In this document: in pieces, positions 59,985 through 63,887 of the stretch | How positions within the stretch are numbered: the first letter of the stretch is position 1 | Layout of the letters: each line of letters starts with the position of its first letter | Source of the DNA: Candidatus Alcyoniella australis | GTDB lineage: Bacteria; Lernaellota; Lernaellaia; JAVCCG01; Alcyoniellaceae | Direction of reading: 5' to 3' | DNA length: 63,887 nucleotides | NCBI GenBank assembly: GCA_030765605.1 | Contig: JAVCCG010000157.1 | Coordinates: 1 to 63,887, forward strand | The notes under the pieces: generated by a model | The model's database searches: none | The model's input: the letters and a program-made list of their open reading frames with translations, nothing else | What the model was told of the DNA's origin: nothing | Made by a program: the position numbers and the translations under genes

Positions 59985-61238
59985 ATGCAACGCAACAACC
60001 TCTGGACCTCGCTGCTGCTGCTGGCGCTGATCGCGGCGCTGTGCGGGTCGCTGCTGCCGACAGCCTCCTGCGACACCAAGACCAACGCCGCGCAGTCCGA
60101 CGACGCGGACGATGACGACGACGACGCGGACGCGGTCAAGGTGCTCGCGGTGCAGCCGCCCTACGGGCCGATCGAGGGCGGCACGGCCGTGGCGGTGCTC
60201 GGACGCAACTTCATTGACCAGGCGTCCGTGACTTTCGGCGATTCTGAGGCGACCGACTTCGAGTTCATCTCGGACAACGAGGTGCGCGTAAGCACGCCGC
60301 CCGCTGATTCCGCGGGCGCGGTGCGCGTGACTTTGACCAATGCCGACGGCGGCTCGGGATCGCTGGTCAACGGCTTTCGCTACGGCGGCGAGCCGGTACA
60401 GATCGACTGGTGCAACATCCAGCATCCGGACAACTACGTGGCCTATGAGTATTTCCCCTCGGGCACGATCTACGGCCGGGTCTACGTCGAGGGCTGCACC
60501 GAGGGCGGCGAGCGCTGCGCCGAACTGATCGGCGCGTTGGGCTACGGCCCCACGGGCGTCGATCCCTCGACCGACCCAACGCAGTTTGGTTGGGAGCTGG
60601 CCGAGTACAACACGGACTGGCCCGGCGACGAGGCCAAAGAGGGCGAGAACAACGACGAGTACATGGCCGTGATCCCGGCCCAGTCCGCGGGCCAATACTC
60701 CTATGCCTACCGCTTCTCCGGCGACGGCGGCCAGACCTGGACCTACTGCGACACCCGCGACGAGGGGGCCGACCCCGGATTCGACGCGGGCGCCCTGGGC
60801 CTGTTCGAAGTGCGCGACGAACTACAGGTCGACTGGTGCGTTATTGTCGAAGGTTCCCAGGCGCGCAGCACTGCGCCCGACGTGGAGAGCGACCCGATCT
60901 ACGGCCAAATCTGGATCGAGGGCATCACCGGCCGCGAGGTGAACTCGCCATGGGTCAGCGCGCAGATCGGCGTGGGGCCCACCTCGGGCCAGGGTGGCGA
61001 TCCGCAGTCGCAGCCCGCTGACTACGACTGGTTCGACGCCGAGTTCAACGGCTCGTCACTGGCGCCCGAGGACAACTCCGAGTACATGCGCGGCCTGACC
61101 CGCGCCAGCGCGGGGAGCTACGGCTACGCGTTCCGCTTCTCATCCAACAACGCGCACTCCTGGACCTACTGCGACACGGGCGATGGCTCGAACGACGGAT
61201 TCCAGCCGGGCAACATGGGGCTGCTGACCGTGGAGTAA
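59985..61238 (+). CDS. IPT/TIG-domain lipoprotein, probably last gene of the maltodextrin locus
   Basis: A 417-residue protein with a lipobox (TASC, about residue 27) followed by an Asp-rich linker. One IPT/TIG domain (about 45-130; VLAVQPPYGPIEGGTAVAVLG) precedes two copies of an extracellular domain found in deltaproteobacterial secreted proteins, visible as IYGRVYVEG and IYGQIWIEG, and SYAYRFSGDGGQTWTYCD and GYAFRFSSNNAHSWTYCD. Asp follows the lipid-bearing Cys, which in E. coli favours inner-membrane retention. A starch-binding role is possible. The dispersed repeat starts right after its stop. Confidence 0.82.
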   Translation: MQRNNLWTSLLLLALIAALCGSLLPTASCDTKTNAAQSDDADDDDDDADAVKVLAVQPPYGPIEGGTAVAVLGRNFIDQASVTFGDSEATDFEFISDNEVRVSTPPADSAGAVRVTLTNADGGSGSLVNGFRYGGEPVQIDWCNIQHPDNYVAYEYFPSGTIYGRVYVEGCTEGGERCAELIGALGYGPTGVDPSTDPTQFGWELAEYNTDWPGDEAKEGENNDEYMAVIPAQSAGQYSYAYRFSGDGGQTWTYCDTRDEGADPGFDAGALGLFEVRDELQVDWCVIVEGSQARSTAPDVESDPIYGQIWIEGITGREVNSPWVSAQIGVGPTSGQGGDPQSQPADYDWFDAEFNGSSLAPEDNSEYMRGLTRASAGSYGYAFRFSSNNAHSWTYCDTGDGSNDGFQPGNMGLLTVE

Positions 61239-61597
61239 GGGGTCGTAATGCTACGAACCACTCCGCGTCGAATGACTGAGGAGAAGAGGTAAAGATCATA
61301 AAAACGATCCTTGGCACCTTTGAGGTGCCCGCAAAACTCGCGGCAGCCGACTTTGAGTCGGTGCAAGTCTCGCGCAGGACCATAGTCTTAATGCCACGAC
61401 CCTCTCCGCGCAGGCACCTTGTAGGTGCCACAATACTCGCGGCAGCTTGGAGCTGCTGCATGGCTCGCGCAGAATCACAGTCGTAGCACCACGACCCATT
61501 CTGCGTAGAAACATTTGGGGAGAGAAGGGGTAAAGATCGTTAAAACGATCTTTGTGTGTAGGGCGAGCGGCGCATTGCCTCAGGGTTTTCATAAACT
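61239..61597 (+). repeat. Dispersed hairpin repeat with tandem 100-base units
   Basis: Starts directly after the stop of the IPT gene. A partial unit (61240-61312) is followed by a unit with hairpins at 61313-61329 and 61347-61361, then one with hairpins at 61413-61429 and 61442-61456; corresponding first hairpins are exactly 100 bases apart. The last hairpin (61532-61553, 9-bp arms) and the tail to 61597 match the inverted copy at 1-156. Stems differ between units but stay paired: inner bases of the 7-bp stem are GGCACCT or GGCGGCT with matching complements. No protein is encoded; open frames here are by-products. Confidence 0.85.
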
Positions 61598-61787: not shown

Positions 61788-62348
61788 ATGAAGCGCTTAA
61801 TGTTCTTGGCCCTCGCGGCTCTGCTGTGCCTGGGTGTGGGCCTGGTTATCTTGTGCGGCGGCGGCGGAGATGACGACGACGATAGAGGCGACGACGACGA
61901 CACAGGTGACGATGACGACACCGGAGATCTGACTTGGCAGGACCCGCCGTCGAACGATGGCATGACGTGGGACGAAGCGAAAACCTATTGTGCCTATTTG
62001 AGCTTCGACGGTCACGATGACTGGCGTCTGCCGACGATCAGCGAATTGCGTTCCCTGATTCGCGGCTGCGACGCTACAGGGACCGGTGGCGCCTGTAACG
62101 GCACTGACGATTGCCTGAGCTGGACCGATTGCAGGAACGATCCATGCTTTGGCTGCGATTTCCTGGAGGGTCCCGGTTCTGGTGGGGCGTATTGGCCGGA
62201 TGGAATGTCCGGTGCAATAAGCTGGTATTGGTCGTCTTCGCCGGTCGCGGACGAAGACTACTACGCGTGGACCGTCAGTTTCATCTTCGGCTCCGTCTCC
62301 ACCTCCCTCCTCGCCAACATCGCCGTCCACGCGCGTTGCGTGCGTTAG
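61788..62348 (+). CDS. DUF1566 (Lcl-like) lipoprotein, copy 1
   Basis: A 186-residue lipoprotein. Signal peptide with lipobox VILC (about residue 23), Gly/Asp-rich linker (DDDDTG units), then a DUF1566 domain (about 55-186) with [16 protein letters not shown], four to six cysteines and the YWSSSP motif. DUF1566 domains are related to C-type-lectin folds and some are DGR targets. The last codons before ARCVR (62250-62330) vary strongly from the next two copies with fixed third bases. Ends in ARCVR. An ATG upstream in frame lacks a ribosome site; GGAGGG precedes this one. Confidence 0.88.
62250..62330 (+). other. Variable region of copy 1 (DGR-like pattern)
   Basis: 27 codons. Against the same codons of copy 2 (63142-63222), 19 differ, and 18 of these keep the third base (17 C, one T). 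Scaffold codons gac (third), tac, gcg, tgg, gtc, ttc, ggc and gtc are unchanged. The 28 bases just before (TGGTATTGGTCGTC and on) are identical. Third copy is at 63793-63870. Confidence 0.6.
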
Positions 62349-62655
62349 CCGATGCTACTCTGCGAAGTAGGCCGCTACGTAGCACGAGCCGTGAGATTGG
62401 TAATTTGATCCTTTGGTAATTTGGTAATTTTACACGCGCCGAAGGCGTAACTGAAAATCTCGAAGATCGGCGCGAGAGCCGATCGCCGCTGAGGGGAGCG
62501 TTCGGGGAGATCGTGGAAACCGAGGAGTTTGAGCATTCGGGCAAGTGCATCGAGGCGGTGGTGGCAGCTCTCACCTAAAAGTAACTTAGCCTTGACACCG
62601 CAAAGGTAGACGTGTGTATTTTAAGCTCATCCTGAATACTTTTTCGGAGGGAACG
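62349..62655 (+). promoter_or_regulatory. Intergenic region before the second DUF1566 gene
   Basis: 307 bases without a confident gene. It holds short TTGGTAATTT repeats (62396-62430), a 53-codon stretch without a start (62420-62578) that may be a decayed gene end, and a promoter-like TTGACA (62592-62597), 17-base spacer, TGTATT (62615-62620). GGAGG is at 62646-62650. Confidence 0.45.
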
Positions 62656-63240
62656 ATGAAGCGGATGCTGTTCTGGGTGCTCGCGGCGGTTCTGTGCCTT
62701 AGCGTGGGGCTGGTTATCTCGTGCAGCGGCGGCGGCGGGGATGACGACGATGATACGGGCGATGATGATACGGGCGATGACGACACCGGTGACGATGACA
62801 CAGGCGACGACGACACCGGAGATCTGACTTTGCAGAATCCGCCTTCGGACGAAGGGATGACCTGGGCCGAAGCTAAGGCCTATTGCGACGATTTGAGCTT
62901 CGACGGCCACGACGATTGGCGCTTGCCGACAATCTCGGAACTGCGCAGCCTGATTCGCGGATGCGTTTACACGGAGACCGGAGGAGACTGCAATGTAACG
63001 GACGATTGCCTAGACTCATCTTGTCGGAATGATTCCTGCGATGGCTGCGGGTACCTGGAGGGTCCCGGTTCTGGTGGGGCGTATTGGCCGGATGGAATGT
63101 CCGGTCCAATCGGTTGGTATTGGTCGTCTTCGCCGGTCGCGGGCTACGACAACTACGCGTGGGGCGTCTATTTCTACTACGGCTACGTCAGCAGCCACTC
63201 CACCGGCTACTACGACTACTACGCGCGCTGTGTTCGTTAG
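62656..63240 (+). CDS. DUF1566 (Lcl-like) lipoprotein, copy 2
   Basis: A 194-residue paralogue of copy 1: lipobox VISC, five DDDTG units in the linker, then the DUF1566 domain with [16 protein letters not shown] and YWSSSP. Its C-terminal variable region (63142-63222) is Tyr-rich (YYGYV, GYYDYY). About 50 bases before the motif (from CCTGGAGGGTCC on) are identical to copy 1, unlike the more diverged upstream half. GGAGG lies five bases before the ATG. Confidence 0.88.
   Translation: MKRMLFWVLAAVLCLSVGLVISCSGGGGDDDDDTGDDDTGDDDTGDDDTGDDDTGDLTLQNPPSDEGMTWAEAKAYCDDLSFDGHDDWRLPTISELRSLIRGCVYTETGGDCNVTDDCLDSSCRNDSCDGCGYLEGPGSGGAYWPDGMSGPIGWYWSSSPVAGYDNYAWGVYFYYGYVSSHSTGYYDYYARCVR
62740..62823 (+). 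repeat. Asp-rich 15-base tandem repeat in copy 2
   Basis: Five units of about 15 bases (GGCGATGATGATACG-type) encoding DDDTG between lipobox and DUF1566 domain. Copy 3 has a similar run of about six units (63366-63474), copy 1 fewer. Unit number differs, so slippage is likely. Confidence 0.75.
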
Positions 63241-63285
63241 CTGACCGAATGCTTATGGTCAGAGACCATTAACCCGGAGGGATCG

Positions 63286-63887
63286 ATGAAGCGCTTAATG
63301 TTCTTGGCCCTTGTGGCCCTGTTATGCCTCGGCGTGGGGCTGGTGATCTCGTGCAGCGGCGGCGGAGATGACGACACAGGGGACGATGATACGGGCGACG
63401 ACGACACCGGGGATGACGATACGGGAGACGATGATAGCGGGGATGACGATACGGGTGACGATGACGATGGCGATCTGACCTGGCAGAATCCGCCGTCGGA
63501 AGATTCCATGTCCTGGGATGAAGCGAAGACCTACTGCGCTAACTTGAGCTTTGACGGTCACGATGATTGGCGGCTGCCGACCATCAGCGAGCTGCGGTCC
63601 CTGATCCGCGGCTGCGATGCGACCGAGACCGGCGGCGCTTGTAACGTCACTGACGACTGCACTGAATCCGATTGCTGGAACAATCCATGTATAGGCTGTG
63701 AATACGGGGAGGGTCCCGGATCGGGTGGGGCTTATTGGCCGGATGAAATGACCGGTGAAATCTTTTGGTATTGGTCGTCTTCGTCGGTCGCGCACTACGG
63801 TGACCGCGCGTGGGCCGTCGGTTTCAACACCGGCTACGTCGGCGAAGATGGCACCGGTAACTACAGCGGCGCGCGCTGTGTCCGTCC
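63286..63887 (+). CDS. DUF1566 (Lcl-like) lipoprotein, copy 3 (cut by window end)
   Basis: At least 200 residues; the frame is open at the window end. Starts [16 protein letters not shown] with lipobox VISC, then an Asp-rich linker and a DUF1566 domain with [16 protein letters not shown] and YWSSSS. The first 35 bases are identical to copy 1. It reaches the ARCVR position where copies 1 and 2 stop and continues, so the C-terminus is longer. It follows copy 2 by 45 bases with GGAGGG before the ATG, so they are probably co-transcribed. Confidence 0.85.
   Translation, partial: MKRLMFLALVALLCLGVGLVISCSGGGDDDTGDDDTGDDDTGDDDTGDDDSGDDDTGDDDDGDLTWQNPPSEDSMSWDEAKTYCANLSFDGHDDWRLPTISELRSLIRGCDATETGGACNVTDDCTESDCWNNPCIGCEYGEGPGSGGAYWPDEMTGEIFWYWSSSSVAHYGDRAWAVGFNTGYVGEDGTGNYSGARCVR

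Follow-up and report, generated by a model that had tools for sequence, protein, structure and literature searches.

Three tandem lipoprotein genes close the window, the 63,887-base stretch of DNA analysed here, which is the whole of contig C157 from the MAG G000 (157 contigs, 98% complete). They are, with high confidence, the variable-protein (target) genes of a bAvd-type diversity-generating retroelement (DGR). Over a C-terminal tract of at least about 80 bp, substitutions sit at positions where genuine DGR templates have adenine, and other bases, silent ones included, are preserved. The original prediction that the genes are DGR targets is strongly supported by a test against an external template, by its controls, by relatives in the same phylum and by fragments of avd. 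Its further claim, which places the reverse transcriptase (RT) and template past the right edge, was not confirmed: the contig ends at 63887, and G000 carries no PF00078 RT, no match to a same-phylum DGR RT and no template-like copy of the variable region (VR). A complete DGR is not claimed for G000, since both RT and template were sought there and not found. The genes are thus of a known kind, well supported as DGR targets with remnants of a DGR cassette, and unusual in being orphan target cassettes.

All three genes lie on the forward strand. Copy 1 (61788..62348) encodes a lipoprotein with a D/T/G-rich linker and a C-terminal Lcl_C (DUF1566) domain (PF07603, E 3.5e-22), copy 2 (62656..63240; E 1.1e-20) is likewise an Lcl_C lipoprotein, and copy 3 (63286..63887; E 2.4e-22) is open at the contig end, so that the three tandem DUF1566 lipoprotein genes described from sequence are confirmed by a domain match in each. 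The linkers of all three are acidic and D/T/G-rich. From the codon table, the VR cores span 62250..62330 in copy 1 (27 codons preceding ARCVR), 63142..63222 in copy 2 and 63793..63870 in copy 3 (26 codons). A near-identical 5′ flank, at 62163..62249 in copy 1 and common to copies 2 and 3 in the codon alignment, precedes the VR, and the rewritten tract of copy 1 probably starts near 62201. The right end of the contig lies about 15 nt beyond the VR of copy 3, ahead of its stop codon; in relatives whose genes share the ...CGTCC ending, the stop comes one codon further on (CCT TAG or CCG TAG).

The domain is C-type-lectin-like, on the PF07603 match and a structure model, and the VR forms its C-terminal part. 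The best AlphaFold model of the copy 2 domain, built from a six-row alignment, reached a pLDDT of 77, the other four models being much poorer; its top PDB match is the Legionella Lcl C-terminal domain 8q4e (probability 1.00, E 3.5e-3), followed by weak C-type-lectin matches. LdtA of Legionella is a DUF1566-type lipoprotein varied by a DGR. Targets of the Lcl/LdtA type share with the window genes the Lcl_C domain at the protein C-terminus, with 8q4e as best structural match, but they belong to a different phylum, the relation is at family level only, and G000 has no RT. The variation probably serves to alter the binding face of adhesin- or receptor-like lipoproteins anchored at the surface. Just upstream, at 59985-61238, the window encodes an acidic-linker protein carrying an IPT/TIG domain, and the same combination of lipoprotein signal and acidic linker occurs on dozens of G000 contigs. 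The intergenic stretch upstream of copy 1 (61281-61554) holds imperfect direct repeats (70 nt at 71%, 33 nt at 88%).

The codon-position signature of the VR is sharp. Between copies 1 and 2, 19 of the last 27 codons before ARCVR differ and 18 of these keep the third base, exactly as the original prediction had it; the single NNT position (agt, tat and ggt in the three copies) and the fixed scaffold codons are also as described. Substitutions at codon bases 1/2/3 number 13/15/1 in the VR (27 codons), against 15/15/31 in the Lcl_C body (79 codons) and 0/0/3 in ARCVR (5 codons), which bears out the reversed pattern, dominated by third bases, in the gene bodies. The contrast between VR and body is significant for copies 1 and 2 (Fisher p = 3.7e-6) and for the other two pairs (4.6e-5 and 1.9e-4). 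The 5′ flank is indeed nearly identical in copies 1 and 2, with 2 third-base changes in 28 codons compared with 31 in 79 in the body. Even a serine pair (tcc/agc) differs at bases 1 and 2 alone. Among VR codons with amino-acid changes, 17 of 18 keep the third base where 8.8 are expected (P = 6e-6) from the codon usage of 39 long ORFs of the window (GC3 0.85), which argues strongly against codon bias alone; body codons with amino-acid changes show third-base identity near that expectation. Copy 3 fits the adenine-directed pattern less well because four of its codons (ggt, gaa, gat, ggt) depart at the third base, its two comparisons keeping the third base in 14 of 19 and 12 of 15 codons. Similarly, the excess of NNC codons, given the residues and codon usage, reaches significance in copies 1 and 2 (P 1e-4 and 0.004, respectively) but not in copy 3 (P 0.10). 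Judged from the three copies, most relatives and the phage templates, the template seems to have AAT, not AAC, as the codon preceding TTC, and this holds in GC-rich genomes too; the phage templates are not independent evidence on this codon, because the search pattern fixed that base.

The same signature yields a prediction about the template. Setting each varying VR base to adenine gives the 18-mer template core TGGAACGTCAATTTCAAC, which matches 56 viral contigs in IMG/VR exactly, whereas control 18-mers on the same scaffold match one contig (G-filled; among the 56) or none (C-filled). Most of the 56 matches run on as AACGGCAACGTCAACAACAA or aacggcaacgtcaacaac, AAC-rich repeats; many come from one phage group and the remainder from several distinct groups. 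All six phage loci scanned have an RT ORF, and five of them also yield a TR/VR pair whose 13-16 mismatches all lie at adenines. Compared over 42 nt with the template of phage locus L137, copies 1, 2 and 3 place 12 of 12, 9 of 9 and 10 of 12 mismatches, respectively, at template adenines, or 31 at A and 2 elsewhere when pooled (p 5e-15); with this external phage template, the variable positions do largely match template adenines. As 18 of these nucleotides had served to find the template, the 24 nt outside the search 18-mer were tested separately and gave 20 mismatches at A and 2 elsewhere (p 1.5e-8). Further phage templates point in the same direction with weaker values, one of them not significant. 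Static Lcl_C paralogs of the same genomes do not fit, with 5-12 non-A mismatches each over the same stretch. Phage DGRs with the core GCGTGGAACGTCAATTTCAACAACGGCAACGTC (IMG/VR, for example L137, L148 and L150) share the non-adenine scaffold of VR copies 1 and 2 over the first 14 codons only; beyond codon 14 their templates diverge from the window VRs, and neither a relative of the G000 Avd in viral contigs nor one of the Lcl_C target in phages was found.

Seven genomes of this small phylum, probably FEN-1099, for which the name Ca. Lernaellota is proposed (PMC13248872), were compared. The scaffold GCGTGGNNCGTCNNTTTCNNCNNCGGCNNCGTC occurs with zero mismatches at nine places in G000, G002 and G006, which are Lcl_C genes where read, and near matches exist elsewhere, as on G001:C138; no scaffold match is an A-rich template. 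Pattern and BLAST searches for a template across the seven genomes returned VRs only, and BLAST with the full predicted template likewise found no A-rich copy. No cognate core was found in the four VR-carrying genomes (G000, G001, G002, G006). Complete DGRs on G004:C11 (L105), G006:C7 (L106) and G006:C46 (L107), in the order target-VR, bAvd, RT, TR and with 12-17 A-only TR-VR mismatches, show that the phylum hosts such elements. Like the system proposed for the window they possess bAvd, RT and an A-specific TR/VR pair, but their templates encode ...NRASNRNNNRPDNTNNN, a different target type that is not Lcl_C. No DGR-specific RT model in NCBIfam matched the relatives’ RT. The RTs of G001 and G003 were rejected as DGR RTs, their sequence motifs resembling those of group II intron or other types.

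There are also remnants beside VR genes. Those of G001, G002 and G006 have a downstream non-coding tail in common; behind it comes the start of an avd, MAKYDHLPIYKKALELTVYVEDVAKNFSRYHKYTIGTRLRDACWEV, truncated or carrying stops. Searching with the avd piece located two copies in G000, on contigs C1 and C60; an Avd-like protein had been named as something to look for, and fragments are all that was found, with no intact avd in the MAG. The C1 copy is readable for about 60 codons and then seems to depart from Avd, and the C60 copy has a stop near codon 48; a 62-residue piece has E 1.7e-5 against bAvd (PF22296), a match that does not reach the curated cut-off. Across G000, G001, G002 and G006, the fragments are cut at differing points or bear stops. 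In the window, a non-coding tail after copy 1 (62386..62447, forward strand) recurs in the post-VR tails of C1, C60 and the relatives, and a remnant, ESRSPLRGAFGEIVETEEFEHSGKCIEA (62473..62557, forward strand), which has no Pfam match, is by local alignment a homologue of the DNA behind the broken avd on C1. Together, the tail and this homologue make it very likely that the window genes descend from a DGR cassette. On C1, the broken avd at the contig start is immediately followed by a HEPN_RiboL-PSP-like protein (L279, 630-1259) and then by an smc-like gene on the opposite strand. A small DUF2292-like ORF remnant occurs behind the avd fragment at target loci from two families, L280 (G000:C60, near the contig end) and L114 (G002:C33).

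The RT, together with Avd, would have reverse-transcribed a template RNA rich in AAC/AAT and made its errors at adenines; the resulting cDNA would then have replaced the VR by retrohoming at the VR's GCGCG(C/T)TG(C/T)GT end. This rewriting would be much more recent than the gene duplications, because third-base differences between copies 1 and 2 amount to 1 in 27 in the VR and 31 in 79 in the body. The RT and template themselves would sit where the assembly has a gap, be supplied in trans by an element left out of the bin, or have been lost recently. Since the cognate core is missing from four VR-carrying genomes, loss or trans supply is favoured as much as assembly gaps.

Loss of the DGR core from the lineage, which would make the VRs fossils of past mutagenesis and the genes frozen orphan targets, is a serious contender within the DGR-target explanation, though it falls short of an even chance. 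RT, template and intact Avd are all lacking from the MAG: no PF00078 match was obtained in the G000 contigs at E<=1 (control genomes gave matches), and tblastn of G000 with a same-phylum DGR RT gave none at E<=10 in this 98%-complete MAG, which is broken at this locus. The differing truncations and stops of the avd fragments in four genomes argue in the same direction, and there is precedent in Treponema denticola, whose DGR has remote and orphan targets and whose isolates keep target genes without RT and TR (PMC4891356). There, as here, targets are chromosomal, dispersed and survive where RT and template are absent; the Treponema case differs in that the cognate core is in none of the genomes of this phylum searched here, and in that several targets here bear avd stubs. 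Against fossilization, the assembly breaks at these very repeats, and the VRs of copies 1 and 2 are nearly without silent drift although the bodies have drifted, so that any loss of the DGR was recent.

Somewhat less probable, and held tentatively, is the full claim of the original prediction, an active DGR whose RT-template locus sits in the unassembled stretch past 63887 or in another gap. The VR rewriting is very recent, the contig ends 15 nt after the third VR, and C1 and C60 (the latter in reverse) both begin at the same tail base, GTGAAATTTGGTAATTTGG, which indicates that this repeat breaks the assembly. Either contig may be the continuation of copy 3. However, both start in the post-VR tail, carry a broken avd only, with no RT, and run past it into other genes; the MAG is without an RT anywhere, and the template is missing from G001, G002 and G006 as well, which is much for gaps alone to explain.

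Supply of RT and template in trans from a phage or plasmid not binned with the chromosome is unlikely, if a step behind an assembly gap. It would account for the absence of the cognate core from four VR-carrying genomes, and the template core is common to phage DGRs, but beyond scaffold codon 14 these templates no longer follow the window VRs. Neither a cognate DGR nor its target was found in viral contigs, phages or plasmids: the target protein had no match in phage or plasmid collections, and the G000 Avd had none in viral contigs or plasmids. A broader speculation, which we consider doubtful, is that target cassettes, each an Lcl_C lipoprotein gene with the conserved tail and a truncated avd, are dispersed over many chromosomal sites in the phylum, none beside an RT or template, and are rewritten in trans by a core located elsewhere, so that they spread and last independently of the retroelement.

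That no DGR was involved, and that the pattern arose from codon bias and diversifying selection acting on an adhesin, along with recombination between paralogs, is highly improbable: C is the commonest third base at this GC3 and most VR residues are of kinds having NNC codons, but the third-base identity far above expectation, the coincidence of mismatches with phage template adenines and the contrast between A-filled and control 18-mers all argue against it, leaving a codon-bias explanation strongly disfavoured even though RT and template are indeed absent from the assembled genome.

DGR surveys that begin from the RT miss targets remote from it (PMC8144416). The target genes described here were recognised by codon signature alone, and the template core predicted from that signature was then found in real DGRs; the signature can thus reveal targets that are orphaned or served in trans. 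Should the core truly be absent, the locus offers a way to test how long variation made by a DGR lasts once the element is gone, and if the core acts in trans, target number is decoupled from DGR location.

Some post-VR tails also contain hairpins. In phage DGRs, a hairpin with a 7-10 bp stem and a 4-nt GRNA loop lies 4-34 bp past the VR (PMC3240598). The tails of C1 and the relatives have 7-9 bp hairpins, some with GAA loops, but farther from the VR than in phage DGRs, and nothing convincing of this kind follows copies 1 and 2. The idea that the hairpins in the tails serve DGR-specific recognition is weakened by a similar pair on C100, where no VR is present. This pair (CCAGAGGGG..CCCCTCTGG, CCAAGGC..GCCTTGG or similar) occurs at G000:C100 8665-8721 and in the C1 tail (L279, 1-100), and its presence away from VR genes possibly marks a dispersed intergenic repeat.
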